From positions 1-34,002 of the IMG/VR virus record IMGVR_UViG_3300046747_000393: DNA of 34,002 nt. One strand, given 5' to 3'. Below are positions 6,568 to 21,922 of this stretch, one piece after another. This DNA is from a virus. Every line of letters starts with the position of its first letter. Position 1 is the stretch's first letter. The position numbers and the translations under genes were made by a program. Under the pieces are notes generated by a model. The model made no database searches. It was not told the origin of the DNA and saw only the letters and a program-made list of their open reading frames with translations.

Positions 6568-8276
6568 TCAGACTGACGCTGTCAGTTCTAATTTTGCTGC
6601 TCCTGGCGATCGCCGCGCACGCCCAAGTGCCAGCTGCGAGGCCGCCCACCCTGGGCGTCGGTCTTACTGACGGCTCAGGCTCTTGCAATACCGGCACCCA
6701 ACAAGCTGTCAACAATATCGCCCAACAGGGTTGTGTGCAAGGCTACACCGCCAATCACACCGTGTCTCTTAGCGACGGCGTTCTAAGCTACGCCGCCAAT
6801 GGCGGCTCTTCGATCACGTTTACCCTGGCTCGCGCGACCACCGGAGATGGCGCTCAAGGCGTAGGATATTGTTTCGCGGACTGGACGCATCACGGCTACA
6901 CGCTGGCGACCACGACATCGACGTTCACCGGCAGCGCCGGAGTGAGTGGCTCGTCGCAGGCATTTCCTGCCGACACGTTCATCTGCGCGCAGTCTGACGG
7001 CGCCGATCACTGGACGCTCGAGGTCGTTTGGGGCGACATGGCCAGAGGCGCCGGCGCCGGTGTCGCGAGCCTTGCTAGCGCAAGCTCGAACTTAGTGGTA
7101 ACCGGAACCGGCTCGGGGCCCTTCACGGGCACCGTCACGGTGGCCAACACCTCTCCGCTGCGCTCCCAGGCCGGCGGGTCCTTAGTCGCCGCCGATGGCG
7201 GGAAGATCGTCTACAACACGGGCGGAACCGGGCTCACTTTGCCGGTTCACACCACGACCGGTTTTGGCGCCGGATTCGGCACGACGGTTCTGACCGACGG
7301 CACGGCAGCGACACTAACGATCACCACGGATTCACTCAACGGCAACGCCACCGAGCCGTTGGGGATCAAACAAGGTGTGGGAATCGTCGGGGACGGCACT
7401 GGGGTCTACAAGGGGCTCCTCGGCATGCCCGAGCCGGTCGCCTCCAGCATGTTATTCGCGACATCAGGCCGGGTCCCGACCTGGAGCAGCACCGTTCCCA
7501 TGTCGCTGACCTGGTCCGCCGCTCAGACCTTTTCGGCGGTGCCGGTCTATTCTGGGCTGTCGTCGGGAAGCTGCACGAGCGGTGTGGCGCTCGATTCCGG
7601 TAACGCTCTAGTCAAGATCGCCTGTCCCGCGGGGTCTGGCCTTTCAGGTATGACGACGGGCCAGCTCGGGATTGCGGGCGGAGCCACCAGCATCACCTCC
7701 AGCGTGCCGTTCGGCCTGACCGGCAACAGCACGGTCGTCGAGACGACCTCGGGCGGGAAGCTCACCGCCAGCCTATTACCCGTTCCAACCGCATCAACCT
7801 TGGGGGGCGTCGAATCAAAGGATTGCTCCTCGGGCGGTCAATTTCTTCAAACGATTAACACTGATGGCACAGAGACGTGCGCAACGCCGGCCGGTGGTGG
7901 CGATGTGTCGGCGGCCGCCAACAACACCTTTAGTGGCGTCAACACGTTCGGTGAGGTTCACCTCCAGTCCGATCAGGTGACGTTAACAAGCAACAATTAT
8001 ACTGTCGTGGTCGGAGATTGCGGCAAAATCAAGGTCCTGCCCACGGGCACGACGCCGACGATCACGCTGCCAAATCTTAATACTTCATGCGCGGTCAACT
8101 TCATAGTAAGGGCGGCGGTTTCATATACCTTCAACATTACTGGCAGCGGCACGAAAGTAAATGTCTCCAGCAAATACGCGTCTACGGCGGCAGCTGGCGC
8201 GCACGTAACTGCGGTAATCACGCAGCCTAGCGGTACCGCGGCCGAGTGGACGTTGATCGGAGACCTCACGTTGTGA
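6564..8276 (+). CDS. Exported tail-fibre-like protein
   Basis: The start at 6564 overlaps the stop of the repeat fibre by ATGA and gives 570 aa; an upstream ATG at 6516 would place a polar extension in front of a clear signal peptide. The leader is MIRLTLSVLILLLLAIAAHA with likely cleavage before QVPAA. The mature chain is Gly/Ser/Thr-rich and beta-type. Near residues 370-420 it contains SGMTTGQLGIAGGATSITSS and later LLPVPTASTLGGVESKDC, the same fibre motifs as in the preceding protein. The C-terminus (GDCGKIKVLPTGTTPTITLP, then NFIVRAAVSYTFNITGSG) resembles terminal domains of phage fibre proteins. A fibre with a Sec signal peptide is unusual and is discussed in the findings. Confidence 0.75.
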   Translation: MIRLTLSVLILLLLAIAAHAQVPAARPPTLGVGLTDGSGSCNTGTQQAVNNIAQQGCVQGYTANHTVSLSDGVLSYAANGGSSITFTLARATTGDGAQGVGYCFADWTHHGYTLATTTSTFTGSAGVSGSSQAFPADTFICAQSDGADHWTLEVVWGDMARGAGAGVASLASASSNLVVTGTGSGPFTGTVTVANTSPLRSQAGGSLVAADGGKIVYNTGGTGLTLPVHTTTGFGAGFGTTVLTDGTAATLTITTDSLNGNATEPLGIKQGVGIVGDGTGVYKGLLGMPEPVASSMLFATSGRVPTWSSTVPMSLTWSAAQTFSAVPVYSGLSSGSCTSGVALDSGNALVKIACPAGSGLSGMTTGQLGIAGGATSITSSVPFGLTGNSTVVETTSGGKLTASLLPVPTASTLGGVESKDCSSGGQFLQTINTDGTETCATPAGGGDVSAAANNTFSGVNTFGEVHLQSDQVTLTSNNYTVVVGDCGKIKVLPTGTTPTITLPNLNTSCAVNFIVRAAVSYTFNITGSGTKVNVSSKYASTAAAGAHVTAVITQPSGTAAEWTLIGDLTL

Positions 8277-11185
8277 TGCGGCTCCTCCTTTGGGTCACCA
8301 TCGCGGCGCTCTGCTCGTCTGCCACAGATGCGCGTCCGGGACCCGGGCACGGTGGGGGTCGGCCGCCCTCTTCTGCGCAGACGATTGCGTCGATCACCCC
8401 GACCAGCTGCAGCTTCGTTGGCGGCACGACAAACGGTGTGGTCTGCTCGCTCTCGGTGACGATGAACCCGGCCTCCCCTTCGTTCTCCGGGACGCTGGCT
8501 TTGTGCACCGGGACCAACACGCCGGTAACCGGGTGCTCGGGCGCGAATAGCGGCGGCTTTCACCTCGCTGGCGCGACGCTCGAGCAAAGTACGGGTGGGT
8601 CGGGCACGGCCAACGGCTCTTATACCGACGTCACCGCCTATGCTTCCCAGGCCGGGCTCTCGACGATTTTCCAGCCTATGACGCTGACCGGCTCCGCGGC
8701 GGTCGCTTTCAACGAGGAGTTTGTCGGACCGTTTGCGAGCTGGTCGAACGTCAAGACCGCTTTTGGCGCGGTGGGCGACGGAACCACCGACGACACGGTC
8801 GCGATTCAGAATTGCCTCAACGCTCTCGGGGCCACGACCTGGACCTGCTATTTCCCGGCCGGGACCTACAAGATTTCTAAGACCGTGTCTTTGTTCAATA
8901 CGGTTTATGTCAACCTCATAGGGGAAGATCCGGCGACTACCACCATAGCTTGGTATGGTGACTCGACAACGACGGACGCGACCTTCACCGGGATCATCTC
9001 CTCTAATGTTCTTACGGTATCCTGTCCCTGCACTGGCGCTATAAGGGTAGGGCAGAAAATATCATGGTCCGGATCGCCGCCCGCTTACGTTAGTGCTTAT
9101 GGTACGGGTACGGGCGGGGCGGGGACATACTCTATTTACCAGGCTTATTCGAGCGCCGGGATCGCGGCCACCGCTAGTAGTCGGGCGATGACGACCACCG
9201 ACGAATCCATGGTGTACTTCAACGCCGCTTACTCCAAGGTAGACCGCCTTACCTTTGATGGAAGAAATAACGCCACGGTCCTCGTGAATGAAGACTGGAC
9301 AGGCTTTTCTGGCAGCAGCTTCGATGAGGGCATCCAATATGCTGACGACGTATTCAAGAACGCGACATTAGCGGGATTGCGGTGCGGGTGGGCTGAGGGG
9401 TGCGCGGATGTTGCCGTGCTGCGCAACAGCTTCACCAACGTCGGCACCGGCATCTTCCCATACAATCAAAACGCTCTCGATGTATGGGTGTGGTATTCGA
9501 CCTTCAGCAATAACGCTATAGGGATAGCTAATTACCTACCCACCCAGCCCATAGTTGGCGGATCGCAATTCCACGTCTACCAGAGCAACTTTTCAGCCTC
9601 GACCACGGCCGACATCTCTACGGCCAACCCCGGCGTTTTCAACATTCGAAATAACTTTTCCTCCGGATCTAAGCAATTCATCTGCTGCGGCGGTATTGCT
9701 GGTCAAGATGCCTTCGTCATTCAGGGCAATACGATTGTAAATACGACAAGCTCTCCCTCCGTTTCGATCTCCAGTGAGGGGCCGGATATCTTTATCGACA
9801 ATAAAATCCTCAGTGCCGGCGGAGCTACAGCGCCGGTCGCAGCCTTTTCGCACGCCGGCTTCTCGGGCGGTCAAGCGTTTTCGATGGGCAATCAGTTTAC
9901 GATATCGACCGCGACATGCACCGGCGCTGTACAAATGCTGTCGACGACCAGCACTACTTGTCACTCCATCGACGATACGATCGTCAGTTCGGGATCGATA
10001 AGCACCACGCCACCGTCCCTCCCAGGGACACCATCAAACCTCAGCCGTCTGACCTTCGAGGCAGCTCCATCGGGGTCTGGTTCTACGTGTTCTTATGCGT
10101 CTCCATGCTCCATCCAGACGGCGGTCACCAACGCGGCGGCTTCGGCGGACGCCAACCCGGTCGTTCACCTTCGTCCTGGCGACTACAGCATCGCGACGAC
10201 GATAACAGTTCCGGCGAGTCGGCGGATGCAGATCGTCGGCGATGGAGGGAAATCGCGTCTCATCAACGGCGGCGCCAATCCGATCTTGAAGCTGGCCGGG
10301 CCGAGCCTTGTGGTTCTACGTGAATTCCAGATCGAAGGATCGAACAACTCGGTTGATGGCATTGAAATAGATGCGGTGGATGCTTCCGGAAGCGGCGGGC
10401 GGGTCTTCATGGAGGGGGTGATCGCTGCTTGCAGCACGATCGGGATGAATATCGCCGGCATTGATTATACGAATGTCGAACTACACGACACGCAAAATCT
10501 GCCAGGCAGCGCAAGCGGCGGAATCGTCGTGACCGGTGGCGCGCACGGCGCGTCGGTCAATTCATATTTGCAATTCCAGGATTCTTGTGTGTCAGGGCCG
10601 GTGACGCTCGCCTACAAGGCCTCCGGGAGCGCTCACGTCAATGTGAATGGGACGTGGCAGGAATCTACTGGAGGCGCTGTTGCCAATGTGCCGGTAGACA
10701 TTACCGGAAGCGGTGTATTCAATTATGTCGGAGGTGTGTCGGGTTTTAACACCTCCGTTGCTAATACCGCGAACGTTCATGCGTTTACCGGCACCGCGGC
10801 ATTCGTCGCGCTAAACCCCGAGAACAATTGCGCGATTGTCGGCGGGACATGCGGTGCGTACGCCAATTACACGATTTCCGGTGCGTCCAACTCTAGCGCC
10901 AACGTCCTCGGTTTAGGCATCGTCGGCCTGTCGAATTCATTCTGGCACGACACGACGAGCCCCGCCGATACGATGGAGCTGCTACTGCCGAGTCAGTGGA
11001 TCACCAACCAGCTTGCCGAAGTCAACGACAGCCCTCCCGATCATACGTTCGTCGTCAACACGCTCAACCAGATGCGCACCAATCAGCCGGTTGTCCCGGC
11101 CGCGCTTGCTGCGGGACAGACGGACGTGAGGATCTACCGAGTGACCGTTACCAACTCGGCTAACGGCATCAAATTTGTACCTTAA
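8276..11185 (+). CDS. Exported tailspike-like protein with pectate-lyase-fold domain
   Basis: The ATG at 8276 overlaps the previous stop by one base and begins a signal-peptide-like leader (MRLLLWVTIAALCSSATDA). The 969-aa chain then has an Ig-like region (about 38-145), followed at about 158 by SNVKTAFGAVGDGTTDDTVA and FPAGTYKISKTV, the hallmark entry of pectate-lyase-3/rhamnogalacturonase-type right-handed beta-helices found in phage tailspikes. A second beta-helix-type section starts near residue 590 (TFEAAPSGSGSTCSYASPCS, LRPGDYSIATTI). The final ~130 residues are a non-helical end domain. Such spikes usually bind or cleave capsule, O-antigen or exopolysaccharide. Catalytic residues cannot be assigned by eye, so depolymerase activity is inference. 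Confidence 0.8.
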   Translation: MRLLLWVTIAALCSSATDARPGPGHGGGRPPSSAQTIASITPTSCSFVGGTTNGVVCSLSVTMNPASPSFSGTLALCTGTNTPVTGCSGANSGGFHLAGATLEQSTGGSGTANGSYTDVTAYASQAGLSTIFQPMTLTGSAAVAFNEEFVGPFASWSNVKTAFGAVGDGTTDDTVAIQNCLNALGATTWTCYFPAGTYKISKTVSLFNTVYVNLIGEDPATTTIAWYGDSTTTDATFTGIISSNVLTVSCPCTGAIRVGQKISWSGSPPAYVSAYGTGTGGAGTYSIYQAYSSAGIAATASSRAMTTTDESMVYFNAAYSKVDRLTFDGRNNATVLVNEDWTGFSGSSFDEGIQYADDVFKNATLAGLRCGWAEGCADVAVLRNSFTNVGTGIFPYNQNALDVWVWYSTFSNNAIGIANYLPTQPIVGGSQFHVYQSNFSASTTADISTANPGVFNIRNNFSSGSKQFICCGGIAGQDAFVIQGNTIVNTTSSPSVSISSEGPDIFIDNKILSAGGATAPVAAFSHAGFSGGQAFSMGNQFTISTATCTGAVQMLSTTSTTCHSIDDTIVSSGSISTTPPSLPGTPSNLSRLTFEAAPSGSGSTCSYASPCSIQTAVTNAAASADANPVVHLRPGDYSIATTITVPASRRMQIVGDGGKSRLINGGANPILKLAGPSLVVLREFQIEGSNNSVDGIEIDAVDASGSGGRVFMEGVIAACSTIGMNIAGIDYTNVELHDTQNLPGSASGGIVVTGGAHGASVNSYLQFQDSCVSGPVTLAYKASGSAHVNVNGTWQESTGGAVANVPVDITGSGVFNYVGGVSGFNTSVANTANVHAFTGTAAFVALNPENNCAIVGGTCGAYANYTISGASNSSANVLGLGIVGLSNSFWHDTTSPADTMELLLPSQWITNQLAEVNDSPPDHTFVVNTLNQMRTNQPVVPAALAAGQTDVRIYRVTVTNSANGIKFVP

Positions 11186-12044: not shown

Positions 12045-14384
12045 GTGATCATGCGGCTTTACGGCGCTTTCACAAAGGCCGAAGTGCAATCAGACGGCAC
12101 TGTCCGTCTCGAAGGCATTGCTAGCAGCGAAACTGAAGATGACCAGGGCGAGACGGTCCAGGCCGCGGCGATGCGCGCAGCCATCCCCGAATACATGCGA
12201 TTCCCCGCGCTTCGCGAAATGCATCAACTTTCTGCCGCCGGGACGACGCTGGAGGCCGATGTTGGGCACGATGGCGTAACCCGGATTGTCGGGCACATCA
12301 TCGATCCCGTCGCGATCTCGAAAATAAAAAACCGGGTATATCGCGGCTTCAGCATTGGCGGTCAGGTTACCGGGCGCGACCCGGTCAACCGCAAAATTAT
12401 CACCGGTCTAAAGCTCAACGAGATTTCTTTGGTCGATCGACCCGCGAACCCCGAAGCGATTTTTGATGTCTGGAAAGCGGGCGGCGCAATTATTGAAGGA
12501 AACAACGATATGCCGGATGGCGGATTAGCCACGCTCGGCGATGTCCTCGCCGCGAAGGCGTCTGCTGGCGAGCCTGTGCAAATTTGGTCGTGCAGAAACG
12601 CCGAGCATCGCCACCTTGCGAAGGCGGATGCCGTCCGCTGCATCGAGGACGAAGCCGCGAAGGCGACGGCGGATCCTAGTGACAACCCCGCGATCATCGA
12701 AGACAGCCCGGCGGGCGAAGAGGGCGATGCCGCCCCACCCGCGTCGGCGGCTCAACCTGAGCCACAGAGTGCGCTCGACATGGCGCGGGCAGCGATCGAG
12801 CGCGGCGAGGCGGTGCTCGCGAGGGCGGGCGCCAATACCGAAGCGGCGGCGGTTGACGAACCGGCCGAAATTTCGGATTCGGTTGCCGCCGCGCCTGAGC
12901 AACCAGAGCCGACATCTGACCCGGTTTGTCAACCGGCGGAGAAGGCGACCGACGATACGCCCGCTGGCGACGATCCACCGAGCGCAGACGACAAGCCGTG
13001 GCGGCCGCCGCTGGCCAAGGGCTTGGCAAATGTTGGCCGCATCGCCAACCTCATTATTGAGCTCGATTGGGTCTGCGACGGCATGGAGCTCGAATCCGCG
13101 ATGGAGGGCGATAATAGCCCGCAGCCGGCTAGGCTGATGGCCATCATCGGTGAACTCTGCACGTTTTTGAATGCCTACGTTGCCGAAGAGACCGCCGAAT
13201 TCATTTCGGAGGAAGAATACGGCGGCGGTGACGACGATGAATACGTCGACGTCGGCGGAGGTGTCGCTCCTCTTACTATGTCGTCGATTATCTCCTCTTT
13301 GCGTAAAACCATTTCTGACCCTGATAAATTGGAGGCGCTGGTGAACGGCGTTATTACAAAAGGCGCGCTCCTTGAAGCCGCCGACCAAATCCACCTCGAT
13401 TATGCCGTCCACTACGCCCTAGAGGCGATGGAAATGGATGGCCTCACCAAGAGCGAATTGACCAGTTTCGCCGAGGTTTACAAAGTCCTTATCGACACTG
13501 GCGCTACGTCTGTCGCCGCACCCGCCGCCTCCGGCCCGCCGCGCAACGCGACGCAGGACACCAGCAGGAATGCTCGGGTAACACCGCTCCAGCCACCTGA
13601 TGGCGCGGTTCCGGCTACGCCGATGCCAAAGGCGTCGGACATCACCCGCTTGCACAACGCGATCGCCAAGGCGTCTGAATTGCCCGAGGATGGAACCGTT
13701 CAGGTCAACGCCGATCTGGCGATGAAGGCTGGGAGAAAGCCGCAACACATCATGGCCGGCATGATCCATGATTGTCTGAAGGCGCTCTCTAGCGGCACGA
13801 CCTGCGACGACGAAACCGAGGCGGGCAAGACGACCAAAAAAATCTCTGGCCGGACGATGGCCGCTATCCACAAGGCGCACGAGCACATCGGCAGAGTCCC
13901 TGGCGGAGAATGCCCGGGTGGCGAGCCGACCGAGGCCGGCGAAGAGGAGCGCCAGGGCGCATCTAGCTCGGCCGGCAAGACCATCGAAACGGACGATCTG
14001 GCGAAAGCCCAAATCGAGCGCGACGAAGCCCGCGCCCAGCTGGTCAAGTCCGAAGCAGAGAACACCGCTATGGCCAAGGCCTTGACGGCCATGACAACGA
14101 CGTTCGATCGCATGGCCAAGCAGATCGACGATATCTACCACCAGCCGGTGGCGCCGATAGGGATCGTGCGCACTGGCACGCCGACCACCAAGGCGGCTGA
14201 CAATGCCGCCCCCGACGACCCCACGGAGATCACCGACGCCCAAGCGGTCGCCTGGCTCGCCAAGAAATCGCCGGAACAGCAGACGCTCGCGATGATCAAG
14301 GCCTCCTATGCGACGCCGATGCCTTTGCCGGCCTCGGTTGTCGGGCATTCGCAAGCCGCCAGGGATCGCGTCCCGAACCGCTGA
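12045..14384 (+). CDS. Prohead protease fused to a long scaffold-like C-terminal region
   Basis: Residues 1-145 show the features of caudoviral prohead proteases: LEGIASSETEDDQGE, REMHQ with a likely catalytic His60, RVYRGFSIGGQV with the likely nucleophile Ser103, and LNEISLVDRPANP at 124-136. These enzymes cleave scaffold and capsid N-termini during head maturation. The remaining ~630 residues are acidic and Ala/Pro-rich. They contain a domain with AHEHIGRVPGGECPG (about 610-625) and a coiled coil near 648-698 (DLAKAQIERDEARAQLVKSE onward), as expected of a fused scaffold. At 779 aa it is far longer than a stand-alone protease (about 150-250 aa). The start is GTG 12045 or ATG 12051, which differ by two residues. 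The capsid gene follows after a terminator. Confidence 0.85.
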   Translation: MIMRLYGAFTKAEVQSDGTVRLEGIASSETEDDQGETVQAAAMRAAIPEYMRFPALREMHQLSAAGTTLEADVGHDGVTRIVGHIIDPVAISKIKNRVYRGFSIGGQVTGRDPVNRKIITGLKLNEISLVDRPANPEAIFDVWKAGGAIIEGNNDMPDGGLATLGDVLAAKASAGEPVQIWSCRNAEHRHLAKADAVRCIEDEAAKATADPSDNPAIIEDSPAGEEGDAAPPASAAQPEPQSALDMARAAIERGEAVLARAGANTEAAAVDEPAEISDSVAAAPEQPEPTSDPVCQPAEKATDDTPAGDDPPSADDKPWRPPLAKGLANVGRIANLIIELDWVCDGMELESAMEGDNSPQPARLMAIIGELCTFLNAYVAEETAEFISEEEYGGGDDDEYVDVGGGVAPLTMSSIISSLRKTISDPDKLEALVNGVITKGALLEAADQIHLDYAVHYALEAMEMDGLTKSELTSFAEVYKVLIDTGATSVAAPAASGPPRNATQDTSRNARVTPLQPPDGAVPATPMPKASDITRLHNAIAKASELPEDGTVQVNADLAMKAGRKPQHIMAGMIHDCLKALSSGTTCDDETEAGKTTKKISGRTMAAIHKAHEHIGRVPGGECPGGEPTEAGEEERQGASSSAGKTIETDDLAKAQIERDEARAQLVKSEAENTAMAKALTAMTTTFDRMAKQIDDIYHQPVAPIGIVRTGTPTTKAADNAAPDDPTEITDAQAVAWLAKKSPEQQTLAMIKASYATPMPLPASVVGHSQAARDRVPNR

Positions 14385-17435: not shown

Positions 17436-18383
17436 ATGCGCGCTGATTTATTAGCGGTTTTTATTGCTTACACCAATCCGATGCGCTGGCGGTCGCGATT
17501 GCTGAATTATCTGCGCTGCGAAGAGGAATTGCTGGCTGCCGGCGTATGCCTCGTTACGGCTGAGTGCGCCTATCGCGACCGACCGTTCGAGCTTCTAGAC
17601 CGCGCCGGCGTCATCCGCGTCCGGGTGCGCGGGCAAGACGTGTTGTGGCTGAAGGAGAACCTGCTCGAGCTCGCCGCTCATGCCGCAGGCGATTGGCAAT
17701 ACGGCGCCACGCTCGACGGCGATACGCAGTTCCCCGATCGACGCTGGGCGAGTGAGACCGTGCATGCGCTGCAGCTACATCCCGTGGTTCAGATCTCTAG
17801 CGAAATGGTGTCGCTGGGGCCGCACGGTGAGCATGCCGGACACTCGGTCAGCATAGTCGAGATGCATCGGCGCCAACGGCTTTCCGACAGCCCGATCAAA
17901 CTCGGCCGCACTAAAGGCAATTCCGGTTCCGGCTGGGGCTATCCCGGCCTTGCCTGGGCGTACCGCCGATCGGCTTTCGACCGGCTTGGTGGCTTGCTCG
18001 ACAAATGCATCCTCGGTGGTGGCGATCATCATATGGCGTCGGGTCTGTTGGGCGTGCAGTTTGGGAGCGAGCACAACTACCATCTTAGCCCAGCCTATAA
18101 GGCTTATGTCGATACCTGGGGCGTGCGCGCCCAGCGCGTCGTTGAGGGTAATGTCGGGATCGTGCCTGGCCTCGTGCTGCATTATTGGCACGGTGCCTAC
18201 AAAAACCGCCGTTACAGTGAGCGGCCCGCAATCCTCCAGCAACACGAATACGATCCCGAGACTGACGTGCGCTACGACGCGACCGGTTTATTACAACTTG
18301 CTGGCAATAAGCCTCGCCTGCGAGATGACCTCTTACTTTATATGGCGGTGAGAAATGAAGATAGCGTCCAATTTGATACCTAG
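17436..18383 (+). CDS. Phage-encoded glycosyltransferase-like protein (GT-A type)
   Basis: The 315-aa protein reads like a GT-A-fold glycosyltransferase. LLAVFIAYTNPMRWRSR at the start resembles the nucleotide-binding entry strand, and a DxD metal motif is visible at residues 94-96 (ATLDGDTQF). GWGYPGLAWAYRRSAFDRLG (167-186) is followed by GGGDHHMA (194-201), matching the acceptor/catalytic GG(D/E)D-type segment of galactosyltransferase-like C-terminal domains. HYWHG lies at 249-253. The sugar donor and acceptor cannot be told. Phage glycosyltransferases may modify host surface glycans, phage DNA or virion proteins; its place among capsid and connector genes favours a virion protein (inference). 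It has no signal peptide or membrane segment. The next gene overlaps its end by 29 bp. Confidence 0.65.
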   Translation: MRADLLAVFIAYTNPMRWRSRLLNYLRCEEELLAAGVCLVTAECAYRDRPFELLDRAGVIRVRVRGQDVLWLKENLLELAAHAAGDWQYGATLDGDTQFPDRRWASETVHALQLHPVVQISSEMVSLGPHGEHAGHSVSIVEMHRRQRLSDSPIKLGRTKGNSGSGWGYPGLAWAYRRSAFDRLGGLLDKCILGGGDHHMASGLLGVQFGSEHNYHLSPAYKAYVDTWGVRAQRVVEGNVGIVPGLVLHYWHGAYKNRRYSERPAILQQHEYDPETDVRYDATGLLQLAGNKPRLRDDLLLYMAVRNEDSVQFDT

Positions 18384-19390: not shown

Positions 19391-20020
19391 ATGCCGCAAT
19401 TTGCGAGCCTGGACGACCTCAAAGAATGGCTGACCCTCGGCCAGACCGCATTTCCGCCTACCGATGATCGGCTGTTGACGCGACTCTTGGTCCGCTGTAG
19501 CGCCATAATTGAAAGCTACTTAAATCGTCCACTAGGGCTGGCGACTTACGAAGAGACCATCGACGATTGGGGCGGCTGGCGCGGCGACCGCCGATTAGTG
19601 CTGTGCGTTACGCCGATTGTTTCCGTGGTGTCGCTGAACGTCGGGGGCATCGCGGTACCGCCGGCTCCAAATCCTCATGGCGGGGGCTATTTCATCTATC
19701 GGACCCACTTGACGCTGCAGGGATGGTGGTTCCCTAGCTGCGGGCCGATTGTCGTCCGGTACACTGGCGGCTATGCGGTCATCCCCGACGACATTGTCGA
19801 GGTGTGCCTCGAAATGGCCGCGCGTAAGTACAAGGAACGCGGTCGCATCGGCCAGCGATCGGCATCGATCGGCGGTGCCGAGACGGTCTCTTATGACACA
19901 CTCATGTTTGGCACGGCGCGGATCCAGAGCGACATTCAGGCGATGCTGAACTCGTACCGGCGGGTGTCCCAGGTCGCCATGCCGACCCTCATCCCTCCCC
20001 CCGAACAATGCTTACGATAG
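19391..20020 (+). CDS. Head-tail connector protein (gp6-like)
   Basis: The 209-aa protein has the signature of gp6/QLRG-type connectors: SLDDLKEWL, then a helical bundle segment RLLTRLLVRCSAIIESYLNR, a beta insertion (residues 55-120), YTGGYAVIPDDIVEVCLEMA and ARKYKERGRIGQRSASIGGA, ending in a helical tail. These proteins form the ring below the portal that closes the filled head and receives the tail. It lies in the expected position, ahead of an HK97 gp10-like gene that overlaps it by 13 bp. The 209-aa length is above the usual 100-200, owing to the beta insertion. Confidence 0.8.
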   Translation: MPQFASLDDLKEWLTLGQTAFPPTDDRLLTRLLVRCSAIIESYLNRPLGLATYEETIDDWGGWRGDRRLVLCVTPIVSVVSLNVGGIAVPPAPNPHGGGYFIYRTHLTLQGWWFPSCGPIVVRYTGGYAVIPDDIVEVCLEMAARKYKERGRIGQRSASIGGAETVSYDTLMFGTARIQSDIQAMLNSYRRVSQVAMPTLIPPPEQCLR

Positions 20021-20484
20021 ACCTCATCGGCGACCGCGAGCTCGTCGCCAAGCTCGACGCTACGCCATGGGCGTTACGCGGCGGCGTCGCGCGCACGATG
20101 ACGCGACTCTCGATAGAAACTGAACTCCTCGTCAAGCAGAAGCTGTCCGGCCAGGTGTTGAGGGTCAGAAGTGGCGCGTTGCGGGCGAGTATACGGGCTC
20201 GAGTCTCGGAGAGCATGTCGGCCATAACGGCCACGATCAGCAGCACCGGCGTCCGTTACGCTGCCATCCATGAATTTGGCGGGACGATCCACATCCCGGA
20301 GATCACGCCGCAGAAGGCGTCTGTCCTGGCATTCCAGATCGGCGGGCAGACGATCTTCGCCATGCGTGCCAAGGCCCATGACGTGCGCATTCCGCAGCGC
20401 AGCTTTATGGCCTCTGCGCTTAGAGAGATGCAGCCGCGAATCCGCTCCGAACTACAGGACGCCGTCAACAAGGCTCTGAAATGA
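20008..20484 (+). CDS. HK97 gp10-like head-tail joining/minor tail protein
   Basis: The 158-aa protein matches the HK97-gp10 family pattern: KLSGQVLRVRSGALRASIRA, VRYAAIHEFGGTIHIPE, a short insertion, DVRIPQRSFMASALREMQPR and a C-terminal helix. Members form a ring at the head-tail interface or neck of siphophages. It starts inside the connector gene and its end overlaps the following sedolisin gene by ATGA, so all three are translationally coupled. Length and motif order are normal for the family. Confidence 0.85.
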   Translation: MLTIDLIGDRELVAKLDATPWALRGGVARTMTRLSIETELLVKQKLSGQVLRVRSGALRASIRARVSESMSAITATISSTGVRYAAIHEFGGTIHIPEITPQKASVLAFQIGGQTIFAMRAKAHDVRIPQRSFMASALREMQPRIRSELQDAVNKALK

Positions 20485-21485
20485 TGAAACCTTACGTGAA
20501 GATGCCGGCGGTTCAGGCGATGAGCTGGTCGGTGCCGGGGCTGTGCGCCGCTTATGGGTGGCCGACCAGCTTACCCGGCGGCGGCGTGATCGGCATCGGC
20601 GAGCTCGGTGGCGGCTGGCTGGCTAGTGATATGGCCCAGTTCTTTAAATCTATCGGTCAACCGGCGCCTGCGATTCTTGACGTATCGGTAGATGGTGCCC
20701 AAAACCATCCGGGGCACTCGGGCGCCGATGTTGAGGTGGCTCTCGATATTCAGGTCGCTGCTGCCGCTTATTTCGTCGCCACCGGCAAGCCGGCGTCGAT
20801 CCGGGTGTATTGGGCCAATAATACCGCCGCTGCTATTCCTGACGCCACGCGAAAAGCCGCCGCCGACGGCTGCGATGTCATGAGTTGGTCGTGGGGTGCC
20901 GACGAGGCTGATTGGGGTACGTCCGCGGTATTGCTGATGGAAACAGCCGCTCTGTATGCCACACAGAAAGGGACGATTGTCCTGGCTGCGTCTGGTGACG
21001 GCGGATCAGCGGACGGCGCTCCGGGCTCGAATGTCGATTGTCCGGCCTCTTGCCCGCACGTCATCGGAGTAGGCGGCACCGCAAAGACTACTACCACTGA
21101 AACAGTCTGGCGCGGTTCTGGCGGCGGATACTCTAAGGTTTTCCCTATGCCGCTGTGGCAAGCGGGCGCGCCTCACGGTCCTGGCAGGATGGTGCCGGAT
21201 GTTGCGGCTAACGCCGATCCCCAGACGGGCTATCCGATATTCTCCGGTGGTCAATGGATGGTCGTCGGCGGTACGAGCGCTGCGGCACCTTTCTGGGGCG
21301 CGCTGATCGCCGCGAGCGGTACGAAGCTCGGTTTTATCACGCCGACACTTTTCCTTAATCATCTCGCGTTCACCGACATCACGCGCGGAGCTAACGGCCG
21401 GTACCGCGCTCGCCCCGGCCCCGACGCCTGCAGTGGCCTAGGCTCGCCGTTAGGCGCGAGAATAGCCAAGCTCCTGATGCCGTGA
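20481..21485 (+). CDS. Sedolisin-family (S53) serine-carboxyl peptidase without pro-domain
   Basis: The 334-aa protein carries the full set of sedolisin motifs. E85 and D89 lie in GADVEVALDIQVA (the E-x3-D spacing of the catalytic pair), D173 lies in AASGDGGS (oxyanion Asp), and the nucleophile S266 lies in GGTSAAAP. The calcium site is represented by D299-I300 in FTDITRGANG and by G313 and D315 before SGLGSP. MSWSWG at 134-139 matches the conserved S-x-S-W-G strand. Sedolisins are usually made with an N-terminal pro-domain of about 170-200 residues that blocks and folds the enzyme, and are usually secreted; here both pro-domain and signal peptide are absent. It is coupled to both neighbours, suggesting a head-tail or tail-associated virion protease. 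The target is unknown. Confidence 0.85.
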   Translation: MMKPYVKMPAVQAMSWSVPGLCAAYGWPTSLPGGGVIGIGELGGGWLASDMAQFFKSIGQPAPAILDVSVDGAQNHPGHSGADVEVALDIQVAAAAYFVATGKPASIRVYWANNTAAAIPDATRKAAADGCDVMSWSWGADEADWGTSAVLLMETAALYATQKGTIVLAASGDGGSADGAPGSNVDCPASCPHVIGVGGTAKTTTTETVWRGSGGGYSKVFPMPLWQAGAPHGPGRMVPDVAANADPQTGYPIFSGGQWMVVGGTSAAAPFWGALIAASGTKLGFITPTLFLNHLAFTDITRGANGRYRARPGPDACSGLGSPLGARIAKLLMP

Positions 21486-21922
21486 GCCTGGTCCGCGAGG
21501 ACGTCTACGCAGCGCTCTGGGCGGTCGCATCGGAGGCGGCCGACTTCGTCACAGCCGAGCGTCGATTGCGCCATTGGTCCGATGTGGCCCCGGCCGAGCA
21601 GCCAGCGCTATTCATGACCCAGACCAAAATGATGGCGCAGATTAGCCAGCAAACTAACCTGCCCGTGACGTGGATGCTGCACGCTGAATTCTACATCTAC
21701 GTGCACTCGACGGAACCGTACCTAGCGCCGGCGATGGTCCTTAATCCGCTGCTCGACTCCGTGGTCGAGGCGCTGTGCTACGATTTGGCCGGCAGCGCGC
21801 AGCAGCTCGGCATGCCCGAGCGGGTCCGTTGGGTCCGCATCAACGGCGAAATTCAGACCGCCGAGGGCGTTCTCGGAGATCAGGAACTCGCGATAATCCC
21901 GGTAGAAATTCTCTGCCTTTAA
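21482..21922 (+). CDS. Tail terminator/completion-like protein
   Basis: The 146-aa product starts at GTG and overlaps the sedolisin stop by GTGA. It begins with a helix (REDVYAALWAVASEA), passes through WSDVAPAEQPALFMTQT and WMLHAEFYIYVHS, and ends with NPLLDSVVEALCYDLAG and GELAI-type strands (LGDQELAIIPVEILCL). This helix plus four-strand pattern, and the position before the tail tube gene, fit the small proteins that cap siphophage tails. The call relies as much on gene order as on sequence. No catalytic motif is visible. Confidence 0.6.
   Translation: MSLVREDVYAALWAVASEAADFVTAERRLRHWSDVAPAEQPALFMTQTKMMAQISQQTNLPVTWMLHAEFYIYVHSTEPYLAPAMVLNPLLDSVVEALCYDLAGSAQQLGMPERVRWVRINGEIQTAEGVLGDQELAIIPVEILCL

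Follow-up and report, generated by a model that had tools for sequence, protein, structure and literature searches.

A pro-domain-less kumamolisin-type peptidase gene between head-tail joining genes of a virus genome, and its viral and bacterial relatives

The peptidase gene and its surroundings

The stretch of DNA analysed here (the window) is a virus record of 34,002 bp, in which an open reading frame for an S53 peptidase (sedolisin) is enclosed by two genes of a head-tail operon. The features relevant to this locus are the following.

17436-18383, + strand: weakly glycosyltransferase-like protein (Glycos_transf_2, 0.0081, below cut-off)
19391-20020, + strand: gp6-like head-tail adaptor (PF05135, phrog_442)
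20008-20484, + strand: neck/tail-completion (gp10-like) gene, left of the insertion (Phage_tail_S PF05069, 2e-7; phrog_5, 7.6e-12)
20481-20484, + strand: ATGA start-stop overlap of S53 with the upstream gene (sequence)
20481-21485, + strand: pro-domain-less kumamolisin-type S53 peptidase, 334 aa, ATG start (phmmer, AlphaFold2, Foldseek)
20487-20501, + strand: K-P-Y-V-K, residues 3-7, matching the pro-kumamolisin linker PHFR (1t1e 170-173; motif)
20733-20747, + strand: catalytic Glu and Asp, E85-x3-D89 (identical in 125/125 homologues)
20997-20999, + strand: oxyanion-hole Asp D173 (identical in 125/125 homologues)
21276-21278, + strand: catalytic Ser S266 in GGTSAAAP (identical in 123/123 covering sequences)
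21375-21425, + strand: calcium-site residues D299-I300 ... G313-x-D315 (D299 in 109/123, D315 in 110)
21482-21485, + strand: GTGA stop-start overlap of S53 with the downstream gene (sequence)
21482-21922, + strand: phrog_8150 gene (function not annotated) in tail-terminator position, right of the insertion, directly after gp10 in relatives

A first-pass annotation of the sequence had placed the peptidase in a head-tail joining operon, overlapping both neighbours. The overlaps are present as described. The adaptor and the gp10-like gene have profile matches, whereas the label "tail terminator" for the gene at 21482 derives from gene order only. Because of the start-stop overlaps at both ends, a promoter and a terminator of its own are unlikely for the S53 gene. 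Its GC3 (0.66) is somewhat under that of its neighbours (0.72-0.78). The head maturation protease of the window is a separate gene (12051-14384, phrog_1028/80), and no lysis gene adjoins S53 in the window. The protein at 17436-18383 has an NPxRWxSR-like start and is 38% identical to a protein of Xanthomonas phage XaC1; its family recurs near S53 in L003, L011, L012, L014 and L020. Large fibre-like or cargo proteins of the window at 494, 6564, 8276 and 24709 start with Sec-type signal peptides, that at 8276 also having a pectate-lyase-like domain. Such signals are odd for virion proteins, and similar ones occur in other S53-bearing viral loci.

In a phmmer search against the PDB, residues 21-334 of the peptidase matched mature kumamolisin-As (1sio) with E=2.5e-58, and the sole Pfam hit was to the model of the neighbouring subtilases (PF00082, 1.5e-11). 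The AlphaFold2 model, based on 57 aligned homologues (mean pLDDT 94.0, pTM 0.94), has the subtilisin-like catalytic-domain fold; its best Foldseek matches were kumamolisins (TM 0.90, 42% identity) and pro-kumamolisin 1t1e (0.93). It consists of the catalytic domain and a short tail only, with no docking domain. E85, D89, D173 and S266 align with kumamolisin, so that the Ser-Glu-Asp triad and the oxyanion Asp are present, as is the calcium site (D299, I300, G313, D315), which most homologues keep. The homology search and, as regards the fold, the structure prediction proposed at the outset thus both bear out the earlier description of a complete S53 enzyme, as does the alignment of 125 homologues. 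The open reading frame is confirmed as a genuine sedolisin of the kumamolisin branch. Based on this homology, the model and the kept catalytic and calcium-site residues, the enzyme is very probably active, in agreement with the first-pass annotation.

A pro-domain and a secretion signal are usual in S53 sedolisins, but the former is not universal and the latter does not define the family. Pfam did not find Pro-kuma_activ (PF09286) in the window protein, and the same model recognises the real pro-domains of the homologues L041 and L116. The highest 10-residue hydropathy at the N-terminus is 0.97, compared to 2.5-3.6 in the signal-bearing proteins of the window, and a signal peptide is therefore regarded as absent. 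While both absences had been noted before, one correction is required, since a linker relict, M-K-P-Y-V-K, seems to be kept: the protein begins with M-M-K-P-Y-V-K. Upstream of the core, an (H/R/K)(P/S)Y(F/I/V)K-like peptide is found in 62 of 77 distinct pro-less sequences (1.8 expected after shuffling), and a [KR]P[HM]F[RQ]-like motif ends the pro-domain in all 31 pro-bearing homologues. In pro-kumamolisin (1t1e), PHFR occupies positions 170-173 and the mature enzyme starts at 189; the first self-cleavage takes place at His171-Phe172. The equivalence of PYFK and PHFR was drawn from motif and position and not from a statistical alignment; when a pro-less homologue was aligned with 1t1e by phmmer, the match began only downstream of the PYFK-like peptide. 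Since most pro-less forms keep a peptide corresponding to PHFR, the pro-domain appears to have been trimmed down to a linker relict and not wholly lost. The lack of a globular pro-domain is common to the whole pro-less S53 clade.

Distribution in viruses and bacteria

A viral scan with the gene downstream of S53 as query yielded 80 loci at 51-62% identity, which encode the tube (77 loci), the adaptor (73) and the capsid protein (63). Both gp10 and the terminator align in 62/80 loci, where the gap separating the two matches is mostly 9-215 bp. None of the 80 syntenic viral loci has S53 at the head-tail operon, and S53 is absent from the 30 whole records of syntenic relatives that were searched, where the window's own record served as positive control and was found by the S53 query. 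In a quick tree, the sister of the window gene is L009 (95 SH-aLRT), located in the kin phage G006 (93.7 kb). This phage shares with the window the capsid protein (70% identity), prohead protease, adaptor, gp10, terminator, tube and the 24152 gene. Its gp10 abuts the terminator, and its S53 gene lies 23 kb off (67283-68260), directly downstream of an Acb2/Tad1 hairpin (anti-CBASS-type) gene (L009:7759-7998). With the sister gene at another site, S53 was thus either retained in the lineage while its location changed or gained twice from related sources. Judged from gene order, the location within the head-tail operon is incidental, given the 80 syntenic relatives and the distant position in G006. 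S53 has the pattern of a moron: it is patchily present and separates two genes that are direct neighbours in relatives. In a search for the host by way of capsid homologues in sampled genomes of Acidobacteria and Alphaproteobacteria, no full-length match exceeded 44% identity.

IMG/VR scans detected 45 viral S53 loci, about 34 of them distinct, and about 25 distinct viral records, whose backbones are largely unrelated, contain relatives of the gene. In L007 it has late-gene neighbours, lying between tube-like and tail-assembly-chaperone-like genes, with the sheath upstream. Only G006 among 27 other S53 viral records tested has the capsid family of the window. With Pfam models for terminase and portal, matches above the cut-off were obtained in G006 (both) and the L017 record (portal) alone, so that several records are unproven as phages and some (L027, L033, L037) may not be phages.

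A holin gene (phrog_9284) lies directly downstream of S53 in L018 (3.5e-6) and, as a weak match (0.0035), in L025. In L024, a transglycosylase-like gene is directly upstream, then tail genes, and in L005 an endolysin-like gene follows S53 at 1.2 kb. The S53 reading frame of L005 (L005:7689-9026) includes a proline-rich linker and an N-terminal membrane domain of one or two segments, which may be holin-like. A lysis gene was identified beside S53 in only about four viral loci; others are located by fibre or glycosyltransferase-like genes. Glycosyltransferase-like genes within 5 kb were found in 9/25 pro-less viral loci and in 2/80 control loci (p=2.7e-5), a difference that is only suggestive as the controls represent one phage family with many short loci. 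No signal was detected in the pro-less viral S53 proteins except the membrane segment of the L005 group and a borderline call in L032. Every viral copy that spans the catalytic residues has them intact, and in the quick tree the viral copies cluster apart from the Acidobacteriaceae clade.

Three pro-less forms (L030, L032, L035) are extended at the C-terminus by about 220-260 residues and differ in their N-terminal motif (CTPKFR-like). A second phage S53 lineage (L038, L041, L042, L043, L044, L046; at about 7446-9143) lacks a signal peptide and has the pro-kumamolisin domain, as tested in L041. Its genes are flanked by tail-fibre-like genes for structural proteins in phages of low GC, one record containing a T4-type gp23, and it had no match in INPHARED.

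A profile scan of species genomes resulted in another 80 S53 loci, about half of which are pro-less and signal-less, mainly in Acidobacteriaceae; more distant homologues have a normal pro-domain. The six Acidobacteria loci examined are chromosomal, beside a ubiD-like gene and not in prophages. Peat or soil sources such as fen, bog and palsa are often given in the titles of the nearest bacterial homologues. The earlier statement that known sedolisins are secreted pre-pro-enzymes was thus too broad, and a phage-specific loss of the pro-domain was rejected because a bacterial pro-less clade exists.

There was no S53 match among the 50,697 phage records of INPHARED, no tailed-phage S53 among close structural matches in BFVD and no published account of a phage S53 in the literature searched, in line with the initial impression of an undescribed phage system. 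The enzyme family is already known; the phage-borne pro-less form is new.

Possible roles of the phage peptidase

We tentatively favour the view that S53 is a horizontally mobile accessory gene (moron) for a late-expressed, cytoplasmic kumamolisin-type protease, which probably would not become active until lysis had released it into acid surroundings; this has a little less than an even chance in our estimate. The best-supported part is the mobile, late-expressed accessory protease. Insertion and mobility are seen in the compared gene orders, as are the lysis-gene neighbours of some relatives. Inserted at the stop-start junction of the head-tail operon, S53 would be translated with the late structural genes. 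Having apparently lost the globular pro-domain and the signal but kept the final pro-linker peptide PYVK, like the larger pro-less clade, the protein would be produced late in infection, fold by itself and show little activity at cytoplasmic pH. At lysis, or in the envelope after holin action, it would then be exposed to acid surroundings, where it may digest envelope or debris proteins and thereby benefit the phage by aiding virion release or spread. Such acid switching at lysis is suggested by the activation of sedolisin zymogens at low pH (PMC6278154), by the build of a cytoplasmic protein, by the origin of many bacterial homologues from peat and soil and by the lysis-gene neighbours. On the other side, virions of the phage itself could be damaged if an acid protease were free.

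The main rival to an accessory protease is a virion-borne enzyme, packaged on or in the tail and cutting a host surface protein at entry after acid activation. The position of S53 among virion genes in the window and in L007 is consistent with this, as is the pro-domain-bearing lineage that low-GC phages, among them one with a T4-type gp23, carry in their fibre cluster; this second lineage is a better candidate for a virion-borne enzyme than the window gene. However, relatives with the same head-tail set lack S53, its place differs even in the kin phage, and the model contains no docking domain. For the window gene we thus consider this role rather unlikely.

Less probable still is an intracellular cargo protein acting on the host cell, for instance against a defence or regulatory protein. 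It would fit the anti-CBASS-type gene directly before S53 in G006 and the glycosyltransferase-like genes often found nearby (9/25 versus 2/80). Yet a defence-linked neighbour was recognised in no other locus read, and all S53 enzymes known to us work at acid pH, so that activity is not expected in a near-neutral cytoplasm.

If S53 were of no use to the phage, being either a host gene taken up recently and neutrally or the product of a chimeric assembly, this would explain why a single lineage carries S53 at this site and why its GC3 is somewhat lower, but such a view is hard to reconcile with the seamless overlaps at both ends, the intact catalytic residues, the sister gene kept in G006 and the separate clusters of viral copies, and we deem it very improbable. 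Finally, an assembly protease, as suggested in the first-pass annotation, would process a head or tail structural protein. This draws on the translational coupling to both neighbours but was rejected as highly improbable, as a prohead protease is already encoded in the window, relatives that lack S53 build the same module, the sister gene is 23 kb away and, contrary to a prohead protease, S53 has no conserved place before the capsid gene and is missing from relatives.

Returning to the mobile accessory protease, its repeated carriage on unrelated viral backbones, in some cases beside holin or muralytic genes, points to a selected and so far unrecognised role: proteolysis under acid conditions would contribute to the release or spread of phages in acid soils. 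It is possible, if somewhat doubtful, that phages of acid habitats use zymogen-free acid proteases more generally. These would show no activity at the neutral pH of the cytoplasm until the fall in pH on lysis activated them, and would serve alongside holin and endolysin in egress or spread, with the linker peptide that they retain, rather than a pro-domain, assisting their folding. Sedolisin pro-domains are regarded as necessary for folding and inhibition, and a clade keeping only the linker peptide offers a direct test of this need.

Comparison with known systems

The closest characterised enzymes are kumamolisin and kumamolisin-As (MEROPS S53; 1gt9, 1sio, pro-form 1t1e), with which the window protein shares the fold, the triad, the oxyanion Asp and the calcium site. 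In contrast to these, it is encoded by a phage gene and has neither signal nor globular pro-domain, only a linker-like peptide. The pro-less S53 proteins of Acidobacteriaceae (L047 of Occallatibacter savannae, L093 of Terracidiphilus gabretensis) show the same build and the PYFK motif at about 52-64% identity, but they are chromosomal, located next to ubiD-like genes and form a separate clade. Pro-less S53 domains also occur in Rhizobiales, where, unlike in the window, they are fused behind a Peptidase_S10 (carboxypeptidase) domain (L081, L082, L083, L086, L090, L091, L094; S10 confirmed by Pfam in L081 and L082); L082 has a PYFK-type motif, which L081 lacks by the strict pattern. Sedolisins of giant viruses (Barrevirus, Homavirus; BFVD) likewise represent a viral S53 fold (TM 0.91-0.93), but they are larger proteins and belong to viruses of eukaryotes.
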